Virus record (IMG/VR): IMGVR_UViG_3300032092_004790
Span: 1-22,106 of that record
Length of the DNA: 22,106 nt
DNA from: a virus
Strand: one strand, 5' to 3'
A model generated the notes under the pieces. The model searched no databases. It saw only the letters and a program-made list of their open reading frames with translations, and was not told where the DNA came from. Positions 6,667 to 21,884 of this stretch are shown here, piece after piece (positions within the stretch are counted from its first letter, which is position 1; each line of letters begins with the position of its first letter). The translations under genes were made by a program, and so were the position numbers.

Positions 6667-7563
6667 TTACTCTAAATATTTTTCTATATTTTTCAAAAAA
6701 CCATGAGGTGAGAAATATTCTTCCCATAACTCTCTATTAGATTTTAGATCGAATTTACGTTCTTTAATTATAGAAGGAAGGTTTTTTATTTCTTCTGGAT
6801 TTATAAAAATTATATGCTTATCCCAGTCAATAATATTCTCTAGTGGTAGTATCGTGTCAGTATCTATTAATACAGGAACTCTACCAAAACAAAGAGTTTC
6901 GTAAAAACGATAAGAAAAATTACCGTTTCCTCTCATACAAAAAATATATTTGTTATCTGTCATATTTTTTATAAATTCTCTTTTACCCCTAAATTTAGGA
7001 AGTTCAGGGGACCAAAAACCAGATCGTATTATTTTATCAACAGGATAAACTTTTTCTATACTTTCTAGCATTTCTTTACGATTGCTATTATAAACACCAC
7101 AGAAACCTATAGAATCTTTACACTGTTCAGTAAAGATACAATCATCTGTTATAAGAGCAGGAAAAATCTTCTCTTTTTGAGTTATATTGCTTCTACCAAT
7201 ACTTGTTCTAAAAAGAATAAGATTATCGGGTAAATTATATTGTCTTTCGTCATCGTCATTATAAAAAGTTATAACTTTTTTATTGTACTTTTTAGCATAT
7301 TCGCAAATACTATATAATCTAGCATCATTAGGATTAAATTTAAAAGGAACACCTACATAATCACAATTTTCTATTTCAGTTTTTTCAAATAATGTTTGTC
7401 CTGAAAAAAATAATTTATTTAAAAGTCCATGATTCCAATAACCATATGAATTTATAGTTTCATTAAAAGCAACCTCATTCATAAAAGGTGCTACCCATAA
7501 AATTTCAGTAAACCCTTTGAGATCGTTCGGGGTTAAAATATTAAAATCTACATATATTTTCAT
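6667..7563 (-). CDS. Exostosin-like glycosyltransferase (GT47-type), second copy, opposite strand
   Basis: This is the only well-supported gene on the - strand. From the ATG at 7563 it encodes 298 residues; a longer frame to 7599 would run through its own promoter. The exostosin core is clear: FCMRGNGN (C209-M-R-G-N213), SYRFYETL, RVPVLIDTDTILPL and IIDWDKHIIFI. The N-terminal half has FNPNDARLYS and a DDDE run near residues 102-105, without an obvious match. It faces the gene at 7613 head to head, and their 49-base gap holds two mirror-image promoters. At its 3' end it converges on the gene ending at 6663 with a 3-base gap and no visible terminator. Family good, substrate unknown. Confidence 0.7.
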   Translation of the reverse strand: MKIYVDFNILTPNDLKGFTEILWVAPFMNEVAFNETINSYGYWNHGLLNKLFFSGQTLFEKTEIENCDYVGVPFKFNPNDARLYSICEYAKKYNKKVITFYNDDDERQYNLPDNLILFRTSIGRSNITQKEKIFPALITDDCIFTEQCKDSIGFCGVYNSNRKEMLESIEKVYPVDKIIRSGFWSPELPKFRGKREFIKNMTDNKYIFCMRGNGNFSYRFYETLCFGRVPVLIDTDTILPLENIIDWDKHIIFINPEEIKNLPSIIKERKFDLKSNRELWEEYFSPHGFLKNIEKYLE

Positions 7564-7568
7564 TAAAA

Positions 7569-7596
7569 TATTTAGAGAGTTGAAATTAAAAATCAA
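7569..7596 (-). promoter_or_regulatory. Promoter of the - strand exostosin-like gene (leaderless type)
   Basis: Read on the - strand: TTGATT (7596-7591), 16-base spacer, TAAATA (7574-7569), 5 bases, then ATG at 7563. It overlaps the + strand promoter and has the same geometry. Confidence 0.6.
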
Positions 7597-7607
7597 CATA
7601 TTAAATA
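7580..7607 (+). promoter_or_regulatory. Promoter of the gene at 7613 (leaderless type)
   Basis: TTGAAA (7580-7585), 16-base spacer, TAAATA (7602-7607), 5 bases, then ATG at 7613. The -35 elements of the two divergent promoters lie within each other's spacers, in a GTTGA ... TCAAC dyad (7579-7597). Confidence 0.6.
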
Positions 7608-7612
7608 TTTTT

Positions 7613-8443
7613 ATGTTTCAATATAATAATATATTTTCATCTGATCCTATAGAAAACTTTTGGGAAGGCGATTATCTTAACAACATTTTAGAGCCTTATA
7701 AGAATAAAAATATTAAAATTTTAATTTATTCAGAAAATACAAAAGATAAAGATTCCGTACTAAATTTTAAAATAAATTTTAAACCAGATTTGATATTTCA
7801 TATATCTGACGAATGGGGTAACTGGCATTGGCAAAAACTTATGTATGAAAATGTACCTTTAGTTTTTCGTCAATATATGTTTAAGCAATATCCTAAATTA
7901 TCAAATGTTTATCAGATTCCTCTTGGGTATATGAGTAATTATTTAAAACTAAAAAAACCTATAAAACAAATAAAGGATAGAGAAAATTTTTGGGGGTTTT
8001 GCGGAAATATAGAATCTAAAGAATGGCATATTTCTAAAAATAAAATAAAAGAACAAATTAGTAAATTTCCACACGAACATATATTCAGAACAGATCCAGA
8101 AAATATGTTTGATGTTTATAATAATAGTGTGTTTATGCCTAATAGAAGAGGTAATTATTCTTTAGACTGTTTAAGAATATACGAAGCATGTATGGTTGGT
8201 TGCATACCTATTATTGAAGGTTCACCAGATGAATTAACAGGATCATTTTCTTTTAATTTGAATAACAATAAAATTCCTTTTATCTTTATAGAAAATTACG
8301 AAAACTCGGTAGACAAGATTGAAAAATTATATAACGATAAATATAAATTACAAGAAATTTCTGAGTCGTGTATAGAATGGTTCTACCATCAAATAGATAG
8401 TATTCACTTTAAAATAAAAGAAATTTATAAAAATATAAAATAA
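7613..8443 (+). CDS. Exostosin-like glycosyltransferase (GT47-type), third copy
   Basis: From the ATG at 7613 the protein has 276 residues. The frame is open back to 7517, but that would cross the divergent promoter and the opposite gene's start. It has NFWEGDYLN near the N-terminus, an ISDEWGNWHW stretch, and the exostosin-like C-terminal core VFMPNRRGN (P176-N-R-R-G-N181), followed by LRIYEACMVGCIPIIEGS. It resembles the proteins at 2040 and 6667 in this core but not in the N-terminal half, so the three are probably not recent duplicates. A transferase role is inferred from the core. The next gene starts 7 bases after its stop. Confidence 0.65.
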   Translation: MFQYNNIFSSDPIENFWEGDYLNNILEPYKNKNIKILIYSENTKDKDSVLNFKINFKPDLIFHISDEWGNWHWQKLMYENVPLVFRQYMFKQYPKLSNVYQIPLGYMSNYLKLKKPIKQIKDRENFWGFCGNIESKEWHISKNKIKEQISKFPHEHIFRTDPENMFDVYNNSVFMPNRRGNYSLDCLRIYEACMVGCIPIIEGSPDELTGSFSFNLNNNKIPFIFIENYENSVDKIEKLYNDKYKLQEISESCIEWFYHQIDSIHFKIKEIYKNIK

Positions 8444-8450
8444 ATATAAA

Positions 8451-9149
8451 ATGAAAACAGCAATTTGTTTCTCTGGTGAATTAAGAAGTATTGATAAAAC
8501 TTATCATAAATTAAAAGATAAATTATTAGACCGATTTTCAGATTACGATATTTTCTATCATACTTGGAATGACGATCCAGATATTCATAAGTTACACTAT
8601 ATCGAAAAAGATAAAAATACTAAGAATATACTAATAGAAAATAGAGTAACTTTTCCAGAAAGAGAAATATTTCATAAAAATAAAAGACCAGAAGTTTTTG
8701 TTCAAGGAATGTTAAGACAACTATATTGTTTAAAAACGTGTAACGGTTTAAAAAAATTATATGAAAATGAAAACAATTTCAAATATGATATTGTTGTTAG
8801 AATAAGACCTGATTTACTTTTAGTAAACAACACTTCCCTTGAAAGGAAAATAGAGACATGGAATACTAAAAATTATATGTATACTACAGATCATGATGAT
8901 CACTCAGGTTATAATGATCGTTTTTATTTTTCCAATTCTGAGAATATGGATTTTCTTTCAGATAGATTAGATATATTAGATTACTATACAGATTTAGGAG
9001 GAGTTATTCATTATGAAACATTTTTTAAATTTTGTATAAAATATATTAACCTTGATGTAGCTCGTTCAAATATGCAATTTGTTTTATTAAGAAGTAATGG
9101 AGAAATGTCATCAAATTTATTGAAATATAATATAGACTTAGGTATATAA
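8451..9149 (+). CDS. Glycosyltransferase-like protein with FKYDIVVRIRPD motif (paralog B)
   Basis: The 232-residue protein shares with the gene at 6064 the opening CFSGELRS, the LKK-x-Y-E-N-E helix and NFKYDIVVRIRPD (F110 to D121), followed by NDRFYFSNSENMDF and a conserved-looking H-Y-E-T in the C-terminal part. The extra 33 residues include a YHTWNDD stretch near residue 40, another place where acidic residues could bind a metal. I infer a transferase or sugar-binding role from the motif and neighbours. Its 3' end carries the -35 and spacer of the following epimerase promoter (from 9120). TAAATA occurs 4 bases before the ATG, but no matching -35 is visible. Confidence 0.5.
   Translation: MKTAICFSGELRSIDKTYHKLKDKLLDRFSDYDIFYHTWNDDPDIHKLHYIEKDKNTKNILIENRVTFPEREIFHKNKRPEVFVQGMLRQLYCLKTCNGLKKLYENENNFKYDIVVRIRPDLLLVNNTSLERKIETWNTKNYMYTTDHDDHSGYNDRFYFSNSENMDFLSDRLDILDYYTDLGGVIHYETFFKFCIKYINLDVARSNMQFVLLRSNGEMSSNLLKYNIDLGI
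9120..9148 (+). promoter_or_regulatory. Promoter of the GDP-mannose epimerase gene (leaderless type)
   Basis: TTGAAA (9120-9125), 17-base spacer, TATATA (9143-9148), 5 bases, then ATG at 9154. The -35 lies inside the end of the upstream gene. Confidence 0.6.
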
Positions 9150-9153
9150 TAGT

Positions 9154-10146
9154 ATGAGTCAAAAGACAGCTTTAGTGTTAGGTGCTGGTGGATTTATCGG
9201 CAATCATTTAGTAAATCGCTTAAAAAGTGAAGGATATTGGGTTCGTGGTGTTGATCTTAAATACCCAGAATATCAAGAGAAAAGTAATGCAGATGATTTT
9301 ATAATTGGTGATTTGCGTGATGTAAAATTAGTTTCACTTGTAATGTGGTCCCCTCTTCAAAGAACTACAGAAGCGGGAAGCTTTGATGAAGTGTATCAAC
9401 TTGCTGCTGATATGGGCGGAGCTGGTTATATCTTTACTGGAGAAAATGATGCAAATGTTATGCATAACTCTGCAACAATCAATTTGAATGTAGTAGACTT
9501 TGCAGCAAAGTTTGGAGTTAAAAAGATTTTTTACTCTTCATCTGCTTGTATGTATCCTGCATATAATCAAGAAGATCCTAATAATCCAAACTGTGTAGAG
9601 AGTAGTGCATATCCTGCTGCACCAGATTCCGAATATGGTTGGGAAAAACTTTTTAGCGAACGCTTATATCTTGCATATAATAGAAACCATGGTCTTGATG
9701 TTCGTATTGCAAGATTCCATAATATTTTTGGACCTCTTGGAACATGGCAAGGTGGTAAAGAAAAAGCACCTGCCTCAATTTGTCGTAAAGTTCTTTCTGC
9801 AAAAGACGAGATTGAAATTTGGGGAGATGGCGAACAAACACGTTCTTTCCTTTATATTGACGAGTGTATTGAAGGTATTCGTCGTTTAATTAATGGTGAT
9901 TTCTCAGGTCCAGTAAATCTTGGCTCAGAGGAAATGGTTACTATTAATCAACTTGTTGATATTGCATGTTCTATTGAAAGTAAAAATCTTAAAAAGGTTC
10001 ATATCTCTGGCCCAACAGGAGTAAGAGGACGTAATTCAGATAATAAATTAATTAAAGAAAAACTAAATTGGGAACCGAATTATCCACTTTCAAAAGGTAT
10101 TCAAGAAACATATCACTGGATTAAGAGTCAAATGGAGACTAAATAA
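9154..10146 (+). CDS. GDP-mannose 3,5-epimerase
   Basis: This 330-residue extended short-chain dehydrogenase has the NAD motif GAGGFIG (10-16). Compared with the plant enzyme, the known catalytic and substrate residues keep one constant offset of 13: C132 in SSAC (C145), Y161 and K165 in YGWEK (Y174/K178), K204 in GKEKAP (K217), and R293 in GVRGRNSDN (R306). Long segments such as RFHNIFGPLGTW and GDGEQTRSFLYIDECIEG are typical. The enzyme turns GDP-D-mannose into GDP-L-galactose (and GDP-L-gulose) using enzyme-bound NAD. GDP-L-fucose synthase is the usual mis-annotation, but the conserved C/K/R set favours the 3,5-epimerase. It uses more CGT and CTT codons than the island before it. It would supply a GDP-sugar to a transferase such as the one at 12143. 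Confidence 0.88.
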   Translation: MSQKTALVLGAGGFIGNHLVNRLKSEGYWVRGVDLKYPEYQEKSNADDFIIGDLRDVKLVSLVMWSPLQRTTEAGSFDEVYQLAADMGGAGYIFTGENDANVMHNSATINLNVVDFAAKFGVKKIFYSSSACMYPAYNQEDPNNPNCVESSAYPAAPDSEYGWEKLFSERLYLAYNRNHGLDVRIARFHNIFGPLGTWQGGKEKAPASICRKVLSAKDEIEIWGDGEQTRSFLYIDECIEGIRRLINGDFSGPVNLGSEEMVTINQLVDIACSIESKNLKKVHISGPTGVRGRNSDNKLIKEKLNWEPNYPLSKGIQETYHWIKSQMETK

Positions 10147-10149: not shown

Positions 10150-10156
10150 TATTATG

Positions 10157-10354
10157 ATGACTACAGCGAAAGCATTTGGTATTACTCGTCCCGGCGATCA
10201 CATTGGGCAAACTCAAGCAGTTCCTGCTCAACCTTCTCCTCAACCAAACATTGAGGCAGAGAAATTTAAAATTCTTTCTGAAGCAATTCAGAAATTTATG
10301 AATAAACAAATTTCCAAAGGAGAACTAGAAACAATACAAAACTCGTTGAAGTAA
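10157..10354 (+). CDS. Small protein of unknown function (65 aa)
   Basis: This short protein starts MTTAKAFGITRPGDHIGQ, has a Pro/Gln-rich linker around residues 20-32, and ends in a predicted amphipathic helix (EKFKILSEAIQKFMN ... ELETIQNSLK). An ATG three bases upstream (10154) is equally possible. I do not recognise it. Codon use and amino-acid composition look like a real gene, and it fills the gap between the epimerase and gp46. Its 3' end carries the -35 element of the gp46 promoter and one arm of a 10-bp inverted repeat (10335-10365). Confidence 0.65.
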   Translation: MTTAKAFGITRPGDHIGQTQAVPAQPSPQPNIEAEKFKILSEAIQKFMNKQISKGELETIQNSLK

Positions 10355-10365
10355 TGAGTTTTGTA
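10335..10365 (+). repeat. 10-bp inverted repeat around the gp46 -35 element
   Basis: Bases 10335-10344 are the exact reverse complement of 10356-10365, with an 11-base centre that contains the -35 hexamer (10346-10351). There is no U-tract, so it is not a classic terminator. An operator or a 3' end hairpin for the small upstream gene is possible. Confidence 0.7.
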
Positions 10366-10374
10366 GTGTAAATT
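10346..10374 (+). promoter_or_regulatory. Promoter of gp46 (leaderless type)
   Basis: TTGAAG (10346-10351), 17-base spacer, TAAATT (10369-10374), 5 bases, then the GTG start at 10380. The fit supports GTG as the true start. Confidence 0.55.
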
Positions 10375-10379
10375 AAACT

Positions 10380-12122
10380 GTGAGTTCTAAAACAGTTCAG
10401 TTTCAAAAAATAAAAGTTCGTAATTTCCTATCATACGGTGACTCTCCGATTGAAGTTGAATTCAAAAACGGTATTACATTTGTAACAGGATACAATAAGG
10501 ATGAAGAATCTTACAATGGTGTTGGTAAAACATCACTTATTGTTGAATCTTTATCCTTTTTGCTTTTCGGGGAAACATACAGAGACATTAATCAAAAGCT
10601 TATCAAAAATAAGTTTGGTGGAAAAACGTGTATTGTAGAAGGATGGCTAAAAGTTAACAATGACGAATTATATATAGTTCGTAGTCTTTCTCCTAATAAA
10701 CTTATCTTAACTGTTAATGGTGATTCAGACAGCTACACAAAGTCTGTTCCTGAAACCACTAAATATATTATAGACAATATTGGTGTGTCAAAAACTGTGT
10801 TCACAAACACTATTGTTATGACCAACCGAGAAAGCATGTCTTTTTTAAATCAGAAAAAAGAAGTCAAAACAAAGTTTATTGAAGGCATTCTTGGTCTTGA
10901 AGCATTCGCTGAATTTCTTCGTCTTGCCAAAGATGAAGCAAAACTTGCTGATGATAATCGCGCAAAAAAGTTTCAAGAAAGTACTCTTGTGGAAAGAGAT
11001 TTGAACAATGATCAAACTTACTATACTCAATATGAAGAGAAAAAAGTTCGAGACGAAGACCTTATTAATCAAAAAATAATACTTTTAAAAGCAGTTCAAC
11101 CTGTTGATAATTCTGAAAAAATAAATCAACTACAAGAAGAAAAACAAATTTTAGAAGATTCTTTACCTGAAAAAGAAGAAAGGGTTGGTAAAGGCATTAA
11201 AAAGAAAATGGAACTTGATGCAGATAAATCACAAAAGGAAAAAACACTTCGTGCATTGTCTGGTAAACTCACAGAATGTCCATCTTGTAAAAGACCTTTT
11301 CTTGATCATAACTCTGATGAAATAGAAAACGAAAAAAAGGTTTTAAGAGATAGTATAAATGAACTATCAGTTCAAATTGAAAAGTTCTCAAAGGCTATTA
11401 ATAAAGTCAACTCTGATATTTCTGAAATAAAAACCAAAGTTCGTGAAACGACGAACAATATTCAAAATTTACAAAACGAGCAACAAAAGTTTCTTAAAAG
11501 TGAGATGGAAATAAACAATCTACTTCAACAATTAGAAACTGTTCGTAATAGTGAAAATCCTTTTGGAGAAAAAATTGAAAAAGCTAAAGAAAGACTCTAC
11601 AAGTGTAAAGAACAGTTAGATGTTTTTATCAAAGAATCAAAACTTGCTAACATTGTTAAAGAAGGTGCATCACCTACAGGTGTAAAAGCTCTTGTTATCA
11701 AAAAAGTTATTAACCAATTAAACAATCGCATCAATCATTATCTTGTTCGTTTACATTCACCTTTTCGTATTTATTTTGATGAATTTTTTGAAGAGAATTT
11801 TAAAAGTGTAAATGATGAAGAATACTGCTATGGTAGTTTAAGTGGTGGTGAAGCAAAGCGTGTAGATTTTGCTATGCTTTTTGCATTTCGAGATATAAGA
11901 CGCTTACAAAGCAATGTTCACATCAACTTAACTGTTATGGATGAACTTTTTGACAGTGCATTAGACAGTACAGGAATGAACGACATTATGGAACTCTTAA
12001 AAGAGAGTAAAGATGAGTGCTTTATGGTTGTTACTCATAGACCAGATAATATTGATAATTATGGTTGCAACATTATAGATTTAATCAAAGAAAATGGCAT
12101 CACACTCTTGAATAACTCATAA
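10380..12122 (+). CDS. 46: gp46-like recombination endonuclease subunit (SbcC/Rad50-type ATPase)
   Basis: This 580-residue SMC-like ATPase has an N-terminal P-loop N-G-V-G-K50-T51-S inside a longer SYNGVGKTSL, with the strand KVRNFLSYGDSPIEV before it, as in T4 gp46. A coiled-coil centre (about residues 190-430) is interrupted by the zinc-hook CPSC (C300 and C303). The ABC signature LSGGE (487-491) and Walker B TVMDELFDSALD (D521, E522) follow, with the switch histidine in VVTHRPD. With gp47 (Mre11-like) it would process DNA ends for recombination-dependent replication. The gp47 gene is not in this window, whereas in T4 the two are adjacent. The start is GTG. The next gene's -35 overlaps its 3' end. 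Confidence 0.93.
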   Translation: MSSKTVQFQKIKVRNFLSYGDSPIEVEFKNGITFVTGYNKDEESYNGVGKTSLIVESLSFLLFGETYRDINQKLIKNKFGGKTCIVEGWLKVNNDELYIVRSLSPNKLILTVNGDSDSYTKSVPETTKYIIDNIGVSKTVFTNTIVMTNRESMSFLNQKKEVKTKFIEGILGLEAFAEFLRLAKDEAKLADDNRAKKFQESTLVERDLNNDQTYYTQYEEKKVRDEDLINQKIILLKAVQPVDNSEKINQLQEEKQILEDSLPEKEERVGKGIKKKMELDADKSQKEKTLRALSGKLTECPSCKRPFLDHNSDEIENEKKVLRDSINELSVQIEKFSKAINKVNSDISEIKTKVRETTNNIQNLQNEQQKFLKSEMEINNLLQQLETVRNSENPFGEKIEKAKERLYKCKEQLDVFIKESKLANIVKEGASPTGVKALVIKKVINQLNNRINHYLVRLHSPFRIYFDEFFEENFKSVNDEEYCYGSLSGGEAKRVDFAMLFAFRDIRRLQSNVHINLTVMDELFDSALDSTGMNDIMELLKESKDECFMVVTHRPDNIDNYGCNIIDLIKENGITLLNNS

Positions 12123-12136
12123 AAAGGTTTTAAGTA
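12108..12136 (+). promoter_or_regulatory. Promoter of the GT4 gene (leaderless type)
   Basis: TTGAAT (12108-12113), 17-base spacer, TAAGTA (12131-12136), 6 bases, then ATG at 12143. The -35 lies in the last codons of gp46. Confidence 0.55.
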
Positions 12137-12142
12137 TTTGAA

Positions 12143-13495
12143 ATGCCTACAATCGTTTCAAATAATGAAGTTAAAAAAGTTCCGAATATAAAACCTTTAA
12201 ACGTCGGTTCTTTAAATAAAATAGAATTTTCTAATATAGTTTTTCCTTTTGGAAGAATTTTTGGTCCTAAAATATTTGGGGAATTGTCCCAAAAGTTGTC
12301 GGTATATTCGCCAAACAATAATGGTATAAAAATTCCTGTTCCTGGTGAAGGTCTTCCAAGAGTTATCAACTATTGTGCTGACCAAAGTGGTTGTGCTTTT
12401 TGGCGTATGATTTGGCCAGGAGATGAGCTTCTTGCAAATAACAGAGCAGTAGTAATGACACTTTATCAAATGGTTACACTTGGTCAATTTTATGGAGGAA
12501 TTGATGCAGTTCGTTTACAACGCCAATGCACTGAACCTCAACTCGAATTTATTAAATTTTTAAGAAATGTTTCAGATCAAATGAAACAACAAACAGGCAA
12601 AGGTTTCCGCATTATTTGGGAAGTGGATGATATTGTTTGCCCTGCGGTTGATATTCCAGACTATAATGTTTGCAAAACTGCATTTGAAGGCGACTCGGTT
12701 CATAACAATGTTAAGGAAATGATGAAGTATGTTGACGAGATGACTGTTGTTTCAGAACACATGCGTCAACATTATAAGCAACATTTAAATTTTGATAAAA
12801 TTACTGTTATTCCAAACTATGCACCAAAAAGTTGGATTGATCGTGGATTTGATGAAAAAGATATTCTTAGAAAATATAGTCGTAAAGGAAAGCCAAGAGT
12901 GCTTTATGCAGGAAGTGGAACACATTTTGATGTAAGTAATAAGGTTGGTCAAAAAGATGACTTTGGACATGTGGTTGATAAGATTATGGAAGACATTACA
13001 CTTCATAAAAAGTATGAGTGGGTATTCTTTGGCGCATTACCACTTAAACTAAAACAATTTATTGGAAAAGGAATTGAGTTCCATTCATGGACTTCTATTC
13101 TTGAATATCCGCAAAAGCTTCAAGAAATTGATGTTGATGTAGCAATCGCACCACTTCAAGACAATATTTTCTCTCGTTCAAAAGCAAATATCAAATTAAC
13201 AGAAGCAGGCGTTCAAGGCATTCCTTGTATTGCACAAAATATCGACTGTTATAATTCGGATGGTTGGAAATACTTGTTTAATACTGCTGATGAATTGTTT
13301 AATAAAATTGATGAAGTTTTAAAAACAGAAAATTCGTACATAGAAGCATGTCGTTTTGCACGCGAATATTCAGAGAAGTTTTTCTTACAAAATCATCTTG
13401 ATCAGTATATTCTACTCTATACAACAGAGTATGGCGATGAAAAACGAAAAGAGTGTAAAACATTCTTTAATAATAATAAAGAACAATTTCTATAA
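12143..13495 (+). CDS. GT4-type (GT-B fold) glycosyltransferase
   Basis: The 450-residue protein has a GT-B layout. After about 75 unique residues comes GCAFWRMIWPGDELL, the G-x-x-x-x-R-x-x-x-P opening found in phage GT4 proteins. Then come IIWEVDDI (acidic loop), MTVVSEHMRQH and ITVIPNY (end of the N-terminal domain), RVLYAGSGTH (start of the C-terminal nucleotide-sugar domain), VDVAIAPLQDN, and KANIKLTEAGVQGIPCIA, which carries the family's conserved glutamate region. It is flanked by its own promoter and a terminator, so it is monocistronic and sits between gp46 and gp43. Its codons match the replication genes, not the glycan island, suggesting long residence. Targets could be a virion protein or DNA bases; T4 also glucosylates its DNA, but this protein does not resemble the T4 enzymes to me. 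Confidence 0.8.
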   Translation: MPTIVSNNEVKKVPNIKPLNVGSLNKIEFSNIVFPFGRIFGPKIFGELSQKLSVYSPNNNGIKIPVPGEGLPRVINYCADQSGCAFWRMIWPGDELLANNRAVVMTLYQMVTLGQFYGGIDAVRLQRQCTEPQLEFIKFLRNVSDQMKQQTGKGFRIIWEVDDIVCPAVDIPDYNVCKTAFEGDSVHNNVKEMMKYVDEMTVVSEHMRQHYKQHLNFDKITVIPNYAPKSWIDRGFDEKDILRKYSRKGKPRVLYAGSGTHFDVSNKVGQKDDFGHVVDKIMEDITLHKKYEWVFFGALPLKLKQFIGKGIEFHSWTSILEYPQKLQEIDVDVAIAPLQDNIFSRSKANIKLTEAGVQGIPCIAQNIDCYNSDGWKYLFNTADELFNKIDEVLKTENSYIEACRFAREYSEKFFLQNHLDQYILLYTTEYGDEKRKECKTFFNNNKEQFL

Positions 13496-13500
13496 TAATA

Positions 13501-13525
13501 AAACCCAGTTTAAAAACTGGGTTTT
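13501..13525 (+). terminator. Rho-independent terminator after the GT4 gene
   Basis: Arms AAACCCAGTT and AACTGGGTTT with a small A-rich loop are followed by a T-rich run (TTTTCTCTT). It lies 5 bases after the GT4 stop and just before the gp43 promoter. Confidence 0.85.
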
Positions 13526-13528
13526 CTC

Positions 13529-13558
13529 TTGCAAGTGAAGAACTGAGTAGTATAGTAT
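13529..13558 (+). promoter_or_regulatory. Promoter of gp43 (leaderless type)
   Basis: TTGCAA (13529-13534), then TATAGT after 16 bases (13551-13556) or TAGTAT after 18 (13553-13558). The ATG follows 8 or 6 bases later at 13565. Being just after a terminator, this gene needs its own promoter. Confidence 0.55.
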
Positions 13559-13564
13559 ATCTGT

Positions 13565-16144
13565 ATGCTGAGAAACATTTATTATGACAAGAAAAAATCC
13601 ACGATTCATCACTGGTTATATGAAGAAAACGGCGAACCACTTCACCGAAAAATTCATTTCAAACCATACATTTATGTAAAGGCTGTTGATAAAAAAAGAG
13701 TTCACGGCTTTGGTATTGATGGTGAAGAACTAACTAAAATGGAATTTTCTTCTGAATGGGATAGAAATGACTTTCTTAAAACATATAGAGGACAGGTTTA
13801 TTTTAATCTTCCTGCAACACAGCAATATCTTTTAGAAAATTACTATACAAAAGATATTCAAGAGCTTACACGCTTTCCACTAAGAACATTCTATTATGAC
13901 ATTGAAGTTGTTGCAAACGAGTTTCCTGATCCTAAAGATGCGAAGTTTCCATTAACATCTATTACAATTTACGATAGCTTCTCAAAAAAGTATTATGTAT
14001 GGGGTGTTAAACCTTATGACAGTTATTCTTGTAAAGATCATTTAAAAGATATTGATCCAGAAGAAATTCGATACAGCTATTGTCCGACAGAAAAGGAATT
14101 ACTTTCACAGTTTTTAAAGTTCTGGAGAAAAAACTTTCCTGATCTTGTTGTAGGATACAACTCTTATTCTTTCGACTTACCATACATTGTTCATCGACTT
14201 GAAAAAGTTTTTGGCGAAGGTGAATCAGCTAAACTATCTCCTATTGGTAATATCTATGGTTATGAAAAAGAGAATAAATTTTCTCAAACATACACAGAGT
14301 ATAGTATTGCTGGTGTTTCACATTTAGATTATCTTGTGCTTTACAAAACATTTACTCCTGGTGAAAGAGAAAGCGATTCTTTAGGCTTTGTTTGCAAAGA
14401 AGAACTTGGAAGTGGAAAACTTGATTACGGCGATACATCTCTTAAAGACTTGTCTGAAAGTGATTGGAATCGTTTCATCAACTACAACATTTGGGACGTT
14501 AAGCTTATGGTTCTTCTTGAAGAAAAGAAGAAGTATCTGAACATTGCTGTATTCTCTGCATTCAGCGGTTTTTGTAACATCGACAAAGCTCTTGGTAAAG
14601 TTGCAATTATTGAAGGTATTGTTGCAAAACAAGGATTGCTGAAAAATCAATTTATCACAACACAAGATAACGGTGAACATCAGAAAATTCCTGGTGGTTA
14701 TGTTAAAAACCCTGAAGTGGGAATGTATGAAAATGTTATGGTAATGGACTTAAACTCACTTTATCCTAACACTATTATCACTTTGAATATTTCACCAGAA
14801 ACAAAGGTTGGTCGAATTGAAAATGAAGATGATAAAGTTGTTGCAGTTTATCTTTATAAGAAAAAACAGAGAGTTGATATTCCGAAAGAACGTTTTAAAG
14901 AAATCTTAAAAACTAAAAATTGGTGTGTTAGTGCAGCAGGAATTATTTTTGATCAAAATAAAAAAGGTCTTTGTGCAGAATTTGCAGACAACTTATATAA
15001 GAAACGTAAATTCGTAAAAAATCAAATGCTTGCTATTGAAACTAAATTATCTGATATGGATAAAAATAGTTCTGAGTATATTTCACAAAAACGACTAGCC
15101 GATCAACTAGACACAGAACAATATCTTTATAAGATTTTATTAAACTCGACTTATGGAGTTCTTGCTAATCGTTTCTTTGCTCTTTATGATTTAGATTGTG
15201 CAAAAAGTATTACTCTTACAGGTCAAGCACTTATTCGTCAAAGCGAACAAATAGCAAATGACTATATGCAAAAAGAATGGAATCTTTCTAAAAAAGATAG
15301 AGCAGTCGCAATGGATACGGACAGCACGATTTTATCTATTGATGACATTCTTAAAAAAACCAATTCAACAATCGTAGATGATAATGGAGACTTAACAAAA
15401 GAATTTATTGAAATCGAAAATAAAATTTGTGATAACTTAAACAAAGGAGTTGTTCAATGGGCAAAGGACACTCTTAACACAACTGATTGTCGTTTTGAAT
15501 TTAAACGTGAAAGTGCATGTCCTAAAGCAATTTGGGTTGCAAAAAAACATTACGTTATGCATATTCGAAATTCAGAAGGAGTAAAAATGGACAAGTTGAA
15601 ATACAAAGGTTTGTCTGTTGTTAAAAGCACTTATTCTGATAGCACAAAAGATATTACAAAAAATGTTGTAAAGGGTATTTTCACTGCGGCAGATAAAAAG
15701 AAAGCAGACGAAACATTTTTCAAGTCTTATGAAAAGTTTTTTGACTTGCCTACAAAAGACGTTTCTGTACGTTCGTCTATTAAAGTATTAAATCAGTATA
15801 TGAATGGCGGAGGCTTTAACACTGTAAAAGGTTGTCCTGCACATGTGAAATATGCGATTTATTATAACGAATTATTGAAAACACTTAATCTCTCTAATAA
15901 ATATCCATTGATTACAGAAGGTTCTAAAATTAAATTGATTGCGGTATCACCAAACAAGTATGGCATTGAAGGCATTGCATATCTCGATGAATTACCCGTT
16001 GAATTTGGTTTAGTTCCTGATAAAGTTCGAATGTTTGAGAAGTGTGTTGTGAAATGTCTTACTCCAATTTTCGATGCATTAAAATGGAATGTTCCAGACC
16101 CTAAAAAACAACATGAACTCTCATTGGAAGACCTTTTTAGATAA
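13565..16144 (+). CDS. 43: gp43-like DNA polymerase, family B, with 3'-5' exonuclease
   Basis: This 859-residue protein is close to T4 gp43 in size (898). Exonuclease site: D112 and E114 in YYDIEVV (Exo I, the same numbers as T4), D204 in NSYSFDLPY (Exo II) and D311 in YNIWDVKLM (Exo III). Polymerase site: motif A DLNSLYP with D395, motif B K523-I-L-L-N-S-T-Y-G, and motif C AMDTDST with D584 and D586. All catalytic residues are intact. It replicates the phage genome with sliding clamp and loader genes not found in this window. A terminator and promoter lie directly upstream, and no Shine-Dalgarno site precedes the start. The last 32 bases overlap the small gene starting at 16113. Confidence 0.97.
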   Translation: MLRNIYYDKKKSTIHHWLYEENGEPLHRKIHFKPYIYVKAVDKKRVHGFGIDGEELTKMEFSSEWDRNDFLKTYRGQVYFNLPATQQYLLENYYTKDIQELTRFPLRTFYYDIEVVANEFPDPKDAKFPLTSITIYDSFSKKYYVWGVKPYDSYSCKDHLKDIDPEEIRYSYCPTEKELLSQFLKFWRKNFPDLVVGYNSYSFDLPYIVHRLEKVFGEGESAKLSPIGNIYGYEKENKFSQTYTEYSIAGVSHLDYLVLYKTFTPGERESDSLGFVCKEELGSGKLDYGDTSLKDLSESDWNRFINYNIWDVKLMVLLEEKKKYLNIAVFSAFSGFCNIDKALGKVAIIEGIVAKQGLLKNQFITTQDNGEHQKIPGGYVKNPEVGMYENVMVMDLNSLYPNTIITLNISPETKVGRIENEDDKVVAVYLYKKKQRVDIPKERFKEILKTKNWCVSAAGIIFDQNKKGLCAEFADNLYKKRKFVKNQMLAIETKLSDMDKNSSEYISQKRLADQLDTEQYLYKILLNSTYGVLANRFFALYDLDCAKSITLTGQALIRQSEQIANDYMQKEWNLSKKDRAVAMDTDSTILSIDDILKKTNSTIVDDNGDLTKEFIEIENKICDNLNKGVVQWAKDTLNTTDCRFEFKRESACPKAIWVAKKHYVMHIRNSEGVKMDKLKYKGLSVVKSTYSDSTKDITKNVVKGIFTAADKKKADETFFKSYEKFFDLPTKDVSVRSSIKVLNQYMNGGGFNTVKGCPAHVKYAIYYNELLKTLNLSNKYPLITEGSKIKLIAVSPNKYGIEGIAYLDELPVEFGLVPDKVRMFEKCVVKCLTPIFDALKWNVPDPKKQHELSLEDLFR
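16079..16107 (+). promoter_or_regulatory. Weak candidate promoter inside the 3' end of gp43
   Basis: TTAAAA (16079-16084), 17-base spacer, TAAAAA (16102-16107), 5 bases, then ATG at 16113. The geometry matches the other promoters, but the -35 lacks the G. Confidence 0.25.
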
Positions 16145-16403: not shown

Positions 16404-16433
16404 TTGAAAACTTACTATTACTTCTGTTAATAT
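16404..16433 (+). promoter_or_regulatory. Promoter of the gene at 16439 (leaderless type)
   Basis: TTGAAA (16404-16409), then TTAATA after 17 bases (16427-16432) or TAATAT after 18 (16428-16433), and ATG 6 or 5 bases later at 16439. Confidence 0.6.
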
Positions 16434-16438
16434 TATAT

Positions 16439-16807
16439 ATGGAAGAAAAAATAATAGGCATTCTTAAAAACGTCAGCGAATTAATCGTTGCAACTCTCGT
16501 CGAAGAAACAGACACAGCCGTAAAAGTTAAAAATCCTGCATTTCTAGGAATTAGCGGTCAAAATAATCAAATCAATATCAACTTCATTCCTTTGGAAATG
16601 CTTAGTTTACAACCTAGCGTAAATGTTAGAAACTTACTTGCAAATCCAGCAGAAGAACTTGTATATTCATTTGACAAAAACAGTGTTCTTAAATCAGATT
16701 TAATTCTTGCACAAAATGTTATTGACAACTACAAGAATTTAACAAACGGAAAACAAGCTCCAGCACCTAATAAAAGTGCAGAAGATAACATTGTAAAACT
16801 ATTTTAA
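16439..16807 (+). CDS. Unknown protein (122 aa), possible small beta-barrel
   Basis: The N-terminal half alternates hydrophobic and polar residues in a way that suggests beta strands (VSELIVATLVEE, AVKVKNPAFLGI, QININFIPLEML). The C-terminal quarter is a flexible Lys/Pro/Asn-rich tail (NGKQAPAPNKSAEDN) ending in hydrophobic IVKLF. A short hydrophobic end after a flexible linker is the sort of tail that can dock on a clamp or polymerase, but I cannot show that here. An Sm-like barrel is one possible fold. It has a good promoter and is followed 3 bases later by the next gene, so the two form a small operon closed by the terminator at 17091. Confidence 0.7.
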   Translation: MEEKIIGILKNVSELIVATLVEETDTAVKVKNPAFLGISGQNNQININFIPLEMLSLQPSVNVRNLLANPAEELVYSFDKNSVLKSDLILAQNVIDNYKNLTNGKQAPAPNKSAEDNIVKLF

Positions 16808-17090: not shown

Positions 17091-17126
17091 AAAAAACGAG
17101 AAGGAAAATTCCTTCTCGTTTTTTTT
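17091..17126 (+). terminator. Strong rho-independent terminator before uvsX
   Basis: A perfect stem runs from 17091-17106 to 17109-17124 around an A-rich centre, with core ACGAGAAGGA and TCCTTCTCGT, and ends in a run of eight T. It also carries a run of A on the left, so it could work in both directions. Confidence 0.92.
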
Positions 17127-17128
17127 GC

Positions 17129-17157
17129 TTGAAACAATCATCTATATATGCTATATT
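17129..17157 (+). promoter_or_regulatory. Promoter of uvsX (leaderless type)
   Basis: TTGAAA (17129-17134), 17-base spacer, TATATT (17152-17157), 7 bases, then ATG at 17165. It lies directly after the terminator, so this is very likely where uvsX transcription begins. Confidence 0.7.
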
Positions 17158-17164
17158 ATAGTCT

Positions 17165-18172
17165 ATGTCGGACTTACTTAAAAAACTCAGAAAAAATACA
17201 GTATTAAAACCAGAAATACTAAAGAATAGTAGATATTTTACAAACGAAAAGTTTATTACAACAAATGTTCCATTGCTTAATCTTGCATTATCAGGCAAAT
17301 TAGATGGTGGATTACCAAAAGGTATTGTTCAAATCGCAGCACCGCCAAAGCACTTTAAAACTAATTTCATGATTGAAATTATTAAAGGCTTTCAAAAAGA
17401 AAATGAAGGACAAGATTATATCGTAGTTCTTTATGATAGTGAGCTTGGTAGCACACCAGCTTATTTTGAAAAAGCAGGTGTAAACACAGAACGCATTGAT
17501 CATCGTCCAATTCGCTCTGTTGAAGACTTAAAATCAGACGTTGCAAATCTTATGGAAGATATTTCCGAAGGTGACCGAGTATTGATTTGTGTTGACTCTA
17601 TTGGTATGCTTCGTTCTTTAAAAGAAACAGAAGATGCAAAAGATAACAAGCAAGTTGCTGATATGACGCGAGCAAAACAACTTAAGTCCTTCTTTCGTAT
17701 TATTACTGGTGAAGCAGCAATTAAGCAAATTCCAATGATTATTGTAAATCATTCTTATCAAACACAAGAGATGTATTCAAAAGAAGTTGCAGCAGGTGGA
17801 CGAGGCGCACAATATGCTGCTCATACACTTCTCTTTATTACCAAAGCACAAGAGAAAGAAAAGGTAGAAGGCAGAGATGCGCTTGCAGGCTTTCAATTTA
17901 CTCTTGTTGCGGGATTGTCGCGATATGTACGTGAGAACGCTAAATTCCCTGTTTCTGTGCGATTCGGAGAGGGTGTAGATCGTTACTCTGGTATCTTTGA
18001 TCTTGCAGTTGAACTAGGCTTTATCGACAATCCTAAGCAAGGTTGGTATATGCTCAAAGGTGATGAAAAGCAACGTCGTAAAGCTGATATTGAAGAAGAC
18101 GATGAACTTATGGAATCATTTATAAAAAACAAAGATTTTTGTAGTGCAGTAGAGAAAAAATATAGTCTCTAA
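17165..18172 (+). CDS. uvsX: UvsX-like RecA-family recombinase
   Basis: The 335-residue protein has the RecA core. GGLPKGIVQI leads into a P-loop A59-P-P-K-H-F-K65-T66-N-F, which parallels the unusual T4 UvsX P-loop. YDSELGS carries the catalytic glutamate E93, VLICVDSIG is Walker B with D144, and IPMIIVNHSYQT with GGRGAQYAAHT covers the DNA-binding loop region. The acidic C-terminal end (EEDDELMESF) resembles the UvsX tail. It forms filaments on single-stranded DNA and drives strand exchange for recombination-dependent replication, working with gp32 and gp41, both encoded here. It is shorter than T4 UvsX (391). The first P-loop glycine is alanine. Confidence 0.93.
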   Translation: MSDLLKKLRKNTVLKPEILKNSRYFTNEKFITTNVPLLNLALSGKLDGGLPKGIVQIAAPPKHFKTNFMIEIIKGFQKENEGQDYIVVLYDSELGSTPAYFEKAGVNTERIDHRPIRSVEDLKSDVANLMEDISEGDRVLICVDSIGMLRSLKETEDAKDNKQVADMTRAKQLKSFFRIITGEAAIKQIPMIIVNHSYQTQEMYSKEVAAGGRGAQYAAHTLLFITKAQEKEKVEGRDALAGFQFTLVAGLSRYVRENAKFPVSVRFGEGVDRYSGIFDLAVELGFIDNPKQGWYMLKGDEKQRRKADIEEDDELMESFIKNKDFCSAVEKKYSL

Positions 18173-18183
18173 TAAATAACATC

Positions 18184-18471
18184 ATGATTGAAGCAGTTAT
18201 TAAATCAACAGGAAATACAGTTGATAAACCCGTAGTTAATAGAATTATTATTGAAAACGAGAGTGATATAGCTGTTCGTAGAAAAAATGATGAAACAAAT
18301 AAGATCGAACAGTTCACAATTGGTGAACTGTTCGATTCTTATAATAAAAAATCAACATATCGCAGTAATGCGCCTGAATCATCTCTTTTTGAAGAGTGGT
18401 TCAGCGTCAAATATATTCGTGGAAGACACTTAGAAAGTCGTGTAATCAGTATCCAGTTTTACAGAGTATAG
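18184..18471 (+). CDS. Unknown protein (95 aa) between uvsX and gp41
   Basis: The protein has a beta-rich opening (VVNRIIIENESDIAVRRK), a central EQFTIGELFDSYNKK, and a C-terminal strand pattern (RHLESRVISIQFYRV). I see no known family. It starts 11 bases after uvsX with no promoter of its own in the expected place, so it is probably co-transcribed with uvsX. The coding sequence contains a perfect 14-bp hairpin (18304-18336), and its stop overlaps the G just before the gp41 -35. Confidence 0.65.
   Translation: MIEAVIKSTGNTVDKPVVNRIIIENESDIAVRRKNDETNKIEQFTIGELFDSYNKKSTYRSNAPESSLFEEWFSVKYIRGRHLESRVISIQFYRV
18304..18336 (+). repeat. Perfect 14-bp inverted repeat inside a coding region
   Basis: Bases 18304-18317 are the exact reverse complement of 18323-18336, with a 5-base loop. 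In RNA this is a very stable hairpin for so AT-rich a genome. No T-run of terminator type follows. Confidence 0.9.
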
Positions 18472-18472
18472 C

Positions 18473-18501
18473 TTGACTTTCCCCTCTAAGTATATGATAG
18501 T
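18473..18501 (+). promoter_or_regulatory. Promoter of gp41 (leaderless type)
   Basis: TTGACT (18473-18478), then GATAGT after 17 bases (18496-18501) or TATGAT after 14 (18493-18498). ATG at 18507 is 5 or 8 bases downstream. Confidence 0.5.
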
Positions 18502-18506
18502 GTTGA

Positions 18507-19859
18507 ATGGCGAAAATAGACCTTGATTTTTTTGAGAAGATTATTATTCAGCACTGTCTTAAAAAAGATTCCACTTATATAGCATCAATTATAGATTATC
18601 TTGATAAGAATCTTTTCAGAGATAGTAATATTTCTGAAATAATTGATATTATAAAAAGTTTTTATGTTGAACAAAATAGTGTTCCTACTCTTACAGAATT
18701 GAAGAGTAGAGTAAATACTCTAACATTAAAAGAGTGTTTAAAAAAAGTTGTTGGCTATATTCGCGAATTAGATTCAGAATATAACGAGAATGAACTTGTT
18801 AATAACACAGAGTACTTTATCAAGCAAAGAAAATACGCTTTGCTTATGGAAAAAGCGATTGATAATAAAGCTTCTAATAAAGAATTTAATCTTGAAGATA
18901 TTCAAAAAGAAAGCGAAAAAATTCATCAAATCACACTCATTGATAACTTTGGTTTAGACTATTTTAGTGACAATGAAAGAGTAGTAGATTATTTAAAACA
19001 AAAAGATAGTTTTATCTCCACAGGCTACCGAACTCTTGACGAAGCTTTTGGTGGAGGCTTTCAAAAAGAAGGTAAAGCAATTTATGACATTGGCGGAGAG
19101 ACAAATGTAGGTAAAAGCATTTTCTTAGCAAACATTGCATTAAACGTTGTATTACAAAATAAAAACGTTGTTATTATTTCTCCAGAAATGAGTGAAATGC
19201 GATATGCAAAAAGAATCTCTGGAATGCTCACAGGAATTGCGATTAACTTGCTTGGAGATAATATCGAGAAATACAAAAAGGATATTGAAGAATTTAAGAG
19301 AAAGTACTCTTCAAAATTTATCATTAAAGAAGTTCCTACAAAAGGTGTTTCTGCAAAAAATATTTATGCATATCTTAAAAAACTAAAAGATAAAAGAGGA
19401 ATAAATCCAGATCTTTTATGTATTGATGGTCATGCACTTTTAAAACCTTCTGTTTTGCAAAATTCTAAACATGCAGAACTTCAATATATTGTGCAGGAAT
19501 GTCGCGGCATATCTTATCAAATTGAAGCACCGATTTTAACTGTTGCGCAACTTAATCGCAGCAGTCACAAAGCTAGCAATCCTGGTCTTGATAACATGGC
19601 AGGCTCTTGGGATCAACTTGCAGATTTTGATGCACACGTTAATATTTGGCAAACAGATGAAGATCGTGAAGCAAGCATCATTAGATTTGGTGGTAAGAAA
19701 GTTAGAGATGGAGCTAAAGGTGGTGAAGGTTATCTTCAAATTAACTATGATACTTTAAGACTTTTTGAAGAAGATGAAATGTCTGAAACGGAACCACTCG
19801 ATAAAGAAACACCTCTTTCTAATATTTTAGACTTTGATTATTTAATGAATCATAATTAA
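18507..19859 (+). CDS. 41: gp41-like replicative DNA helicase (DnaB type)
   Basis: The 450-residue protein has a helical N-terminal domain (about 1-150) and a RecA-like motor. After STGYRTLDEAFGGGF comes the P-loop GGETNVGKS with K203-S204. VVIISPEMSEM is the strand carrying the catalytic glutamate, and LLCIDGHALL carries the Walker B aspartate D307. LTVAQLNRSS is the sensor motif, followed by the DNA-binding DNMAGSWDQLADFD region. It unwinds DNA ahead of the polymerase as a hexamer. In T4 it is loaded by gp59 onto gp32-covered DNA; candidates for both lie directly downstream. Its primase partner gp61 is not in the window. The stop overlaps the -10 of the next gene. Confidence 0.92.
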   Translation: MAKIDLDFFEKIIIQHCLKKDSTYIASIIDYLDKNLFRDSNISEIIDIIKSFYVEQNSVPTLTELKSRVNTLTLKECLKKVVGYIRELDSEYNENELVNNTEYFIKQRKYALLMEKAIDNKASNKEFNLEDIQKESEKIHQITLIDNFGLDYFSDNERVVDYLKQKDSFISTGYRTLDEAFGGGFQKEGKAIYDIGGETNVGKSIFLANIALNVVLQNKNVVIISPEMSEMRYAKRISGMLTGIAINLLGDNIEKYKKDIEEFKRKYSSKFIIKEVPTKGVSAKNIYAYLKKLKDKRGINPDLLCIDGHALLKPSVLQNSKHAELQYIVQECRGISYQIEAPILTVAQLNRSSHKASNPGLDNMAGSWDQLADFDAHVNIWQTDEDREASIIRFGGKKVRDGAKGGEGYLQINYDTLRLFEEDEMSETEPLDKETPLSNILDFDYLMNHN

Positions 19860-19862
19860 ATA
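19834..19862 (+). promoter_or_regulatory. Promoter of the gene at 19869 (leaderless type)
   Basis: TTGATT (19834-19839), 17-base spacer, TAAATA (19857-19862), 6 bases, then ATG at 19869. A TGATT ... AATCA dyad (19835-19852) includes the -35. Confidence 0.6.
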
Positions 19863-19868
19863 TAAAAG

Positions 19869-20135
19869 ATGTTTAATGATGAATTTATTTTTCCATGTGC
19901 TAATACCCAAATTGTAACCCAAGAACTCGAAGACTTAATAAACAAGTTTGGAAGTTTAATTACTCTTATTACCAATAAGCCGGTTTCTTGTGTTACAATG
20001 TTTATTGTAATTCAAAAAAATCCAGAACTTAAAAAGTTACTAGTTGAACTTTCTGAAACTTCATGGTACTCTATTGTAGAGTATATGGCATATCGTTATC
20101 CTGTTCTTAATAAATCTAAAAAAATTAAAAAATGA
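19869..20135 (+). CDS. Unknown protein (88 aa), in the position of T4 gene 33
   Basis: This small protein has an acidic N-terminus, a leucine/isoleucine-rich middle (LEDLINKFGSLITLI, then CVTMFIVIQ) and a basic tail (LNKSKKIKK). In T4 the order is 33-59-32, and here an 88-residue protein precedes a gp59-like protein and gp32. I see no clear sequence match to gp33, the late-transcription co-activator, so that reading rests on position only. It ends in an ATGA overlap with the next gene, so the two are translationally coupled. Codon use shifts back to the more TTA/AGA-rich style. Confidence 0.65.
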   Translation: MFNDEFIFPCANTQIVTQELEDLINKFGSLITLITNKPVSCVTMFIVIQKNPELKKLLVELSETSWYSIVEYMAYRYPVLNKSKKIKK

Positions 20136-20794
20136 GTTTATCGGAAAATCAAAAACAAATTTACAATCTTTATTTAAGAGCATTCAGAGTTAATAACAAT
20201 CAACCTTTCAGAGCAAAAAAAGATTTCTCTGATGTGGAAACAGACTTAGAAAAATTAACGAGTCTACAAAAAATAGAAAAGGTATTTTATAAATATCCTG
20301 CGTTTTTTAATAAAACATATTTTGATGCACCATATAAAATTTATAGTGATGAAAAGAAATATTACTCATTGAAATTTTTCGGTAGTCAGAAAGGAATAAG
20401 CACTTGTATATCATATTACAAAATTTTACTTCAAAGTAGTCCAGAAGAACAGCTCGATTATATAAAAGATTCTTTTAAATTTATAGCACAGTTTTGTGAA
20501 GGGAAACAAATTCCTTTAGAACTTTATACAAATCATTGCTCTGTTTCACAAAACGATTGTTTAATTCATCTTAAAGAACATAAAATTTCTTGGTATTCTG
20601 TTTTTGGAATTCCTGGATTTTTTGAAATGTTAAATGATTTACCAAAAGATGAATTTGAATTATATTATGGTTCAGATGTAGAATTAAATGTTTTATTAAA
20701 TAGATTTAGAAGTAGCCAAAAAACTACGGAATATGTTTCTGAACTTAAAAGAAAAATTTCAGGATATTTGCAAAAAAGACTTGCAGAAAAGTGA
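20132..20794 (+). CDS. Probable gp59-like helicase loader
   Basis: The 220-residue protein matches T4 gp59 in length (217) and place, directly upstream of gp32. Weak local likeness can be seen by eye. IYNLYLRAF parallels the VYKLYLMIK opening. A central SYYKILLQ ... DYIKDSFKFIAQF parallels VFYREYIGR ... EEDIRNIYYF. CLIHLKEHKISWYSVFGIPGFFEML parallels the C-terminal lobe IFKLLQSNIISFETFILLDSF. gp59 binds gp32-covered forks and loads the gp41 helicase; both partners are in this window. The protein is basic and helical, as expected. The assignment would fail if profile searches show no gp59 similarity. Confidence 0.5.
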   Translation: MSLSENQKQIYNLYLRAFRVNNNQPFRAKKDFSDVETDLEKLTSLQKIEKVFYKYPAFFNKTYFDAPYKIYSDEKKYYSLKFFGSQKGISTCISYYKILLQSSPEEQLDYIKDSFKFIAQFCEGKQIPLELYTNHCSVSQNDCLIHLKEHKISWYSVFGIPGFFEMLNDLPKDEFELYYGSDVELNVLLNRFRSSQKTTEYVSELKRKISGYLQKRLAEK

Positions 20795-20803
20795 AAAGTG
20801 TAG

Positions 20804-20811
20804 TATAAATA
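20804..20811 (+). promoter_or_regulatory. T4-type late promoter box upstream of gp32
   Basis: TATAAATA is an exact copy of the T4 late promoter -10 consensus. Transcription would begin near 20818, giving a leader of about 58 bases before the gp32 ATG. It is the only exact copy I noticed in a gap between genes. Confidence 0.5.
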
Positions 20812-20815
20812 TATG

Positions 20816-20875
20816 TAGCTGTTAGCGATAGTATCAAAACAGTTGATTAAGAAAAAATTAGAAAATTAGAAAAAT
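20816..20875 (+). promoter_or_regulatory. gp32 leader: hairpin plus A/U-rich stretch, candidate autoregulatory operator
   Basis: CTGTT (20819-20823) pairs with AACAG (20838-20842) and the stem extends to 8 bp with two G-U pairs (20816-20845). An alternative hairpin ATCAA/TTGAT (20833-20847) uses overlapping bases. From 20848 to the AUG the RNA is almost only A and U, with repeated TTAG units. In T4, gp32 represses its own mRNA through a structured 5' element followed by an unstructured A/U-rich stretch at the start site. The likeness is in design; function is inferred. Confidence 0.4.
20843..20871 (+). promoter_or_regulatory. Candidate second gp32 promoter (leaderless type)
   Basis: TTGATT (20843-20848), 17-base spacer, TTAGAA (20866-20871), 4 bases, then ATG at 20876. 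The -35 position fits the series, but the -10 is poor. Confidence 0.35.
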
Positions 20876-21811
20876 ATGTCATTAAACCTAGAAGATATTA
20901 TTAACCAAGTTAAAGCAGTTGAAGAAAATAAGATTCAAAAAGAAAAGGGAGGCTATAAAGGCGACCCAAGAATCTTAAAATTTAAGAAAAATTGTACGTA
21001 TGTATTACGTCTTCTTCCTTATATTAAGGATGTGAACAACACCTTTATTACATATAAAGAAGTAGGATTTAAAAGTTCTGTTGATGGAACATATGTTTAT
21101 GGTGGGCGTTCTCCACAAGACGCAGGTATTAAAGATGACCTCTTTAAAAAGACTCAATGGGATCTTTATTCTAAGGCAAAGGAAAGAGGCGACGAAGTTG
21201 AACAAAAAGCTTCATATAAGTTGCTTCCACAGCGCAAACAAGTAGTCAATTCTTATCTGATTTCTGTAGATGGAGATGATCCTGATGCAAAAGAAAAGAT
21301 TGGTGAAGTTGTTGCAGTTCCTTATCCAGCACAAGTTGATCGTGAAGGAGTTCCTATCAGCGACATTTATAAAAAAATCCACTCAGCGATTTTTGGCGAT
21401 ATGTCTAAAAAGATTGGTGCTAAGGCTCTTGACCTTTCAGAGAAAGGTCGTAGTCTAATTATTAAAGTCACTGAAAAGGCTGGATATAACAACTATTCAG
21501 AAACCGCTTTTGATGACGCAGAAGACCTTGGGCTTAGTCCATCACAAATTAAAGAAATTCTAAACAAAGCTCATGATTTATCAGAATTTATTCCAGAAGT
21601 AAAATCTCAGGATGAGATTCAAAAGATTCTCGACAAGCATTGGTTTGGAACATCTGCAACACCAGATGATGAACTTGAAGAAGAAGTAGAATTAGTTTCT
21701 CCAAAGAGAAAAATTAATCTAACAACTAAACTAGAAGATGATGAGATTCCTATGGGTAAATCAAAATCAGACGATTTAGATGATTTAGATGATCTTCTTA
21801 GCGAAGATTAG
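20876..21811 (+). CDS. 32: gp32-like single-stranded DNA-binding protein
   Basis: The 311-residue protein is close to T4 gp32 (301). It has a short N-terminal cooperative segment, a basic/aromatic core (KKNCTYVLRLLPYIK, FITYKEVGF, TYVYGGRSP, KQVVNSYLISV, IYKKIHSAIFG), and a long acidic tail ending DDLDDLDDLLSED that parallels the protein-docking tail of T4 gp32 (LDDLLNDL-like). It coats single-stranded DNA and organises UvsX, the helicase loader and the polymerase. The only cysteine visible is in KKNCTY. The T4 zinc site (three Cys and one His in the core) is absent, and the matching region reads VYGGRSPQDAG. The leader may carry autoregulatory structure. Confidence 0.9.
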   Translation: MSLNLEDIINQVKAVEENKIQKEKGGYKGDPRILKFKKNCTYVLRLLPYIKDVNNTFITYKEVGFKSSVDGTYVYGGRSPQDAGIKDDLFKKTQWDLYSKAKERGDEVEQKASYKLLPQRKQVVNSYLISVDGDDPDAKEKIGEVVAVPYPAQVDREGVPISDIYKKIHSAIFGDMSKKIGAKALDLSEKGRSLIIKVTEKAGYNNYSETAFDDAEDLGLSPSQIKEILNKAHDLSEFIPEVKSQDEIQKILDKHWFGTSATPDDELEEEVELVSPKRKINLTTKLEDDEIPMGKSKSDDLDDLDDLLSED

Positions 21812-21825
21812 TTGAAAATTTCAAC
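21811..21825 (+). repeat. 7-bp palindrome covering the -35 of the last gene
   Basis: GTTGAAA and TTTCAAC around one central A. It begins on the last base of the gp32 stop codon and includes the -35 TTGAAA. Confidence 0.75.
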
Positions 21826-21840
21826 AGAAGCGGCTAAATA
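21812..21840 (+). promoter_or_regulatory. Promoter of the last gene (leaderless type)
   Basis: TTGAAA (21812-21817), 17-base spacer, TAAATA (21835-21840), 5 bases, then ATG at 21846. This is one of the best matches in the series. Confidence 0.65.
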
Positions 21841-21884
21841 TGATTATGGACGATAATAGTGACATAGCCTTTTTAGCCGCTTCT
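21826..21884 (+). repeat. 13-bp inverted repeat flanking a start codon
   Basis: Bases 21826-21838 are the exact reverse complement of 21872-21884. The 33-base centre holds the end of the -10 element and the ATG at 21846. The arms are richer in G and C (core AGCGGCT) than the surroundings. Confidence 0.9.

Follow-up and report, generated by a model that had tools for sequence, protein, structure and literature searches.

Bacteriophage T4 is the textbook model of phage gene expression, in which messengers carry untranslated leaders and Shine-Dalgarno (SD) sites, and its gene 32 is autoregulated through a leader in which A-rich repeats lie between a structured 5' element and the start codon. In the Thermus phages phiYS40 and P23-45 the middle and late mRNAs are leaderless. 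The T4 late promoter is an 8-bp box whose first base stands at -13, roughly a helical turn ahead of the RNA start (PMC2988020). In bacteria, leaderless (TA-led) genes have been called by a -10 element located some 12 bases upstream of the start codon (Zheng et al. 2011, PMC3160421, where a leaderless mRNA of lambda is also named), and this mark has been tested in Deinococcus (PMC12340547). A search of the open-access literature found no paper on leaderless T4-like phages.

The DNA analysed here, the window, is the whole 22,106-base stretch of IMG/VR record IMGVR_UViG_3300032092_004790 (29.7% G+C), in which the T4-type replication genes gp46, gp43, uvsX, gp41 and gp32 adjoin a glycan operon. 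Megablast gave no match among the INPHARED phages, and the best identity of the DNA polymerase, about 32%, was to polymerases of cyanophages. Relatives, mostly fragmentary, were found among IMG/VR contigs (G001, 42 kb; G002, 75 kb; G003, 24 kb; G007, 90 kb; G008, 90 kb; G009, 98 kb; G010, 44 kb), together with a wider group whose polymerases are 35-40% identical. Counts given for the clade refer to seven contigs with 544 genes. When the epimerase gene of the window was used in the search for a host, the matches were mixed, many coming from Alphaproteobacteria and Bacteroidota. One piece of G009 (20001-40000, L109) carries 19 tRNA genes within its 20 kb, with none in the searched pieces of the window, G001 and G002.

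Promoter elements at the start codon

The upstream regions of this uncultured T4-like clade make it very probable that its promoters are placed for transcription to start on the start codon, giving leaderless mRNAs, with gp32 as an exception. Gene starts were called by a hexamer coding score that is blind to upstream DNA, and dinucleotide shuffles (5000 for the window) served as background. TTGA occupied -36 to -33 in 10 of the 26 starts so called in the window, the shuffles giving a mean of 0.84 and a maximum of 5, in agreement with the first-pass annotation, which had expected this tetranucleotide to be rare at a fixed place by chance. The eleven TTGA sites that it listed as -35 elements of leaderless genes are all present, each offset by -33 to -36 relative to its start codon, as is the TTGCAA of gp43 at 13529 (offset -36). 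The list needs correction at 18507, where the -10 is GATAGT and not TAAGTA, and at gp32 (20876), which has no such promoter; two weaker cases, at 10121 and 16079, were unsupported as promoters. The genome-wide comparison with shuffled sequence that it proposed also yielded enrichment in the relatives, TTGA lying at -36 to -33 in 26 of 96 genes of G002 (3.3 expected) and in 122 of the 544 clade genes (18.2 expected, shuffle maximum 30). A generic sigma70 scan was uninformative (73 found, 73.0 expected), and hence the promoter signal resides in the fixed position. Genes without TAARTA (TAAATA or TAAGTA), once aligned on TTGA, displayed [C/G]TTGA[A/C]A and TATAAT separated by a spacer with its peak at 16-17 bp, inside the 16-18 bp spacing of sigma70 hexamers, and TATADT was likewise position-locked far above the shuffles.

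The lock of a second element was stronger than that of TTGA. TAAATA or TAAGTA started at -13 to -11 in 143 of the 544 clade genes, against 4.6 in shuffles, and TAAATA peaked at single-base resolution, with 15, 46 and 51 genes at -13, -12 and -11. An upstream TAA stop codon was considered as the source of the motif and rejected, only 23 of the 143 being upstream stops. The genes that have the box include baseplate- and tail-type ones in G002, mostly without TTGA, and as in TATAAATA-like T4 late promoters a -35 is not required, TTGA accompanying about a quarter to a third of the box genes. Over all genes the two motifs coincided in 41 cases with 35.7 expected, that is, near independence, and among TAARTA genes TTGA concentrated at -35 to -33. 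G002, G007, G008, G009 and others encode a gp55-like late sigma, and in the window, itself a fragment, no such gene was seen. The clamp candidate of G002 had phrog_12062, of unknown function, as its sole match, and no gp33 co-activator was identified. Given the geometry of the T4 late box (PMC2988020), TAAATA at -11 would place +1 on the A of the ATG.

Two promoter types locked to the start codon, a sigma70 type and a T4-late type, are thereby recognized from the motifs. The counts support a start-codon set wider than that first described, which would include late-type boxes and about half of the clade genes. In the glycan operon, whose genes were first described as lacking the motif, gene 1412 has no TTGA, but a TAAATA lies at -12, as it does in the G002 counterpart. 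The elements found in the window are collected in Table 1. The GTG start of gp46, rarer for leaderless mRNAs, is a point against the leaderless reading.

Table 1. Putative promoters, terminators and leader in the window, with their counterparts in relatives
Feature	Coordinates	Strand	Elements	Relatives and remarks
Glycan operon gene promoter	1400..1414	+	TAAATA 1400-1405, ATG 1412	Same element before G002 33678
Leftward gene (7563-6667) promoter	7561..7596	-	TTGATT 7596-7591, 16 bp, TAAATA 7574-7569, ATG 7563	G002 39171: TTGACA + TAAGTA
Divergent promoter	7580..7615	+	TTGAAA 7580-7585, 16 bp, TAAATA 7602-7607, ATG 7613	
Nucleotide-sugar epimerase promoter	9120..9156	+	TTGAAA 9120, 17 bp, TATATA 9143-9148, ATG 9154	G002 39243: TTGACA + TATATA
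gp46 promoter	10346..10382	+	TTGAAG, 17 bp, TAAATT 10369-10374, GTG 10380	TTGAAG overlaps upstream ORF end
Glycosyltransferase promoter	12108..12145	+	TTGAAT, 17 bp, TAAGTA 12131-12136, ATG 12143	TTGAAT within gp46 C-terminus; -10 is TAAATA in relatives
Intrinsic terminator hairpin	13500..13525	+		Directly before gp43 promoter
gp43 promoter	13529..13567	+	TTGCAA 13529, 16 bp, TATAGT 13551-13556, ATG 13565	
Conserved 122-aa gene promoter	16404..16441	+	TTGAAA 16404, 17 bp, TTAATA 16427-16432, ATG 16439	Kept in relatives despite diverged spacers
Intrinsic terminator	17093..17126	+		Directly before uvsX promoter
uvsX promoter	17129..17167	+	TTGAAA 17129, 17 bp, TATATT 17152-17157, ATG 17165	TTGA and -10 retained, spacer diverged
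-10-only promoter	18173..18186	+	TAAATA 18173-18178, ATG 18184	Absent from first-pass list
gp41 helicase promoter	18473..18509	+	TTGACT 18473, 17 bp, GATAGT 18496-18501, ATG 18507	-10 is GATAAT in some relatives
Promoter of gene at 19869	19834..19871	+	TTGATT, 17 bp, TAAATA 19857-19862, ATG 19869	TTGATT within gp41 C-terminus
Probable gp32 promoter	20781..20809	+	TTGCAG 20781-20786, 17 bp, TATAAA 20804-20809	Kept in relatives
gp32 mRNA leader	20817..20875	+	Helix 20817-20823/20838-20844, A-rich repeats to ATG 20876	
Promoter of gene at 21846	21812..21848	+	TTGAAA 21812, TAAATA 21835-21840, ATG 21846	Requires second in-frame ATG; relatives back that start

Shine-Dalgarno sites, terminators and the gp32 leader

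SD-like motifs were found at -18 to -5 in 37 of the 544 clade genes, a control interval giving 53 of 544. At uvsX, intrinsic terminators end just 5' of the promoter in the window, G001, G002, G003, G008 and G010, with different hairpins in that position in G003, G008 and G010, and at gp43 a terminator abuts the promoter in the window and G001; therefore, little room is left there for a leader with an SD. The best internal control for SD versus promoter position is the SD-using relative G019. Of its 19 genes with TAARTA on the start codon 18 had no SD, TAARTA at -42 to -20 came with SD in 26 of 31, and SD was depleted where TAARTA lies at -12 (Fisher p 2e-6). SD sites occur in 36-48% of the genes of G006, L045, L034 and G019 and in almost none of those of neighbouring groups; in the polymerase tree, noisy for small loci, the SD users lie close together and apart from the SD-poor groups.

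According to the mechanism proposed, transcription from the sigma70-type promoters would presumably be the work of the host RNA polymerase early in infection, and that from the TAAATA/TAAGTA boxes presumably of a polymerase with the gp55-like late sigma of the phage, with predicted leaders of 0-3 nt for both types. Ribosomes would load on the 5'-terminal start codon of the leaderless mRNA, and downstream operon genes would be initiated without SD in an A-rich context. The chances seem about even that early and late expression run on leaderless, SD-free mRNAs throughout the lineage, and that lineages of the wider superclade switched between leaderless and SD-led modes by sliding one and the same promoter relative to the start codon, probably following the translation habits of their hosts. 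T at -1 was tried as an initiator mark and discarded: being present in about 60% of genes both with and without a -10 beside the start codon, and thus common in all gene classes, it gives no evidence for an initiator. No phage-encoded IF3 was found among 18 relatives. Ribosomal protein S21 is phage-encoded in only two places among them (G012:C1:134233-134376 and G019:C1:182325-182483). Hence, no such factor accounts for the pattern.

The first-pass annotation had the replication genes made from leaderless mRNAs. Position-locked promoters without SD across the relatives point that way, with the exception of gp32, which is most likely leadered. The distance of its TTGA to the start codon varies among relatives, an extra copy of the leader repeat shifting it in G004, while the upstream promoter and a helix are conserved. 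The TTGA at 20843, misread as a -35, is part of this covarying leader helix of 7 pairs, which is 93% paired over eight sequences and has double changes at three pairs. The spacer of the upstream promoter is 17 bp in the relatives checked by eye, and the transcript would start near 20816.

Alternative readings of the locked motifs

Promoters at the start codon could exist and still contribute a minor share of the mRNA, most of it being supplied by upstream operon transcripts. Tight gene packing is compatible with this arrangement, as is gp32 with its separate upstream promoter and leader, and some genes may indeed be transcribed additionally from upstream promoters. However, read-through should be restricted by the terminators that lie directly 5' of the uvsX and the gp43 promoter, and upstream transcripts would likewise offer no SD, so that a predominance of operon messengers appears unlikely. 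Misplaced start codons are a much less probable source of the pattern. A wrong start call could put the -10 of a real promoter beside the called ATG, the transcript being leadered and translated from a downstream ATG with SD, but an in-frame ATG preceded by SD was present in codons 2-30 of only 2 of 255 promoter-class genes, and the protein similarity of orthologues runs mostly from the called start onward.

It is just as improbable that TAAATA and its A/T-rich context constitute a translation signal, for instance for S1-dependent non-SD initiation, instead of promoters. In its favour, SD is absent throughout, and starts are A-rich in the genes that show no promoter signal (A about 0.5 at each of -3 and -2). 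Nevertheless, the lock is as sharp as three bases and specific for the hexamer (TAA is followed by ATA in 112 cases, with 10 expected), the motif agrees with the T4 late box and in both T4 and Syn9 stands 25-36 bases upstream, the spacing between TTGA and TATAAT is 16-17 bp, and terminators adjoin some of the promoters. Finally, an artefact of chance or genome compactness (AT-rich DNA, TAA stops at typical gaps, protein-constrained gene ends) is hardly credible. TTGA does overlap the end of the upstream gene at 10380, 12143 and 19869, where conservation is better for the -10. Nonetheless, TTGA is present in 40% of the clade genes with the -35 place inside and the -12 place outside the upstream gene, in genes with both places outside other genes TTGA still reaches 28% and TAARTA 27%, the shuffles fall far below the observed counts, and among the 143 TAARTA sites there are 120 that do not coincide with the stop of any called upstream gene.

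Relation to known systems

If the leaderless reading is right, the untranslated leader has been lost as a regulatory layer in a widespread T4-like lineage, which predicts a host or an infection state favouring leaderless translation. Start-codon and promoter calls would then cross-check each other in the annotation of uncultured phages, and the reason why gp32 keeps its leader would become a testable question.

Bacteroidota promoters are of the TAnnTTTG type, and the clade promoters are dissimilar to this consensus. With lambda, phiYS40 and P23-45 the clade would share the placing of phage genes on leaderless mRNAs, but these are unrelated phages without T4-type gp55 promoters, and in lambda a single mRNA is concerned. 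The likeness to TA-led bacterial genes (PMC3160421; Deinococcus-Thermus, PMC12340547) resides in a -10-like signal about 12 bp upstream, above shuffles in the clade, and in the lack of SD; the clade differs in consisting of T4-like viruses with two promoter classes, one of which has a conserved -35.

The start-codon layout is absent or rare in T4 and in those of its cultured relatives that were checked. The Pelagibacter phage HTVC008M comes near it in one region (1-50000, L168), where TAAATA lies at -12 in 7 of 50 genes, 5 of them without SD, but a second region has 1 of 57 and about half of the HTVC008M genes have an SD. No position lock was observed in phiM12 and Cr30, and in Syn9 TAAATA lies at -33 to -25. 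The gp32 leader resembles that of T4 gene 32 in having a structured 5' element followed by A/U-rich, here A-rich, repeats before the start, as in gp32-type operators, and is probably autoregulatory; it differs in that it had no match in Rfam. With T4 late promoters (gp55, gp33, gp45) the clade shares a closely similar TAAATA box, the dispensability of a -35 and, in relatives, a gp55-like sigma. The T4 box, however, stands mostly at -36 to -30 with an SD between it and the start in most genes, whereas the clade box stands 11-13 bases before the start codon, with no SD.
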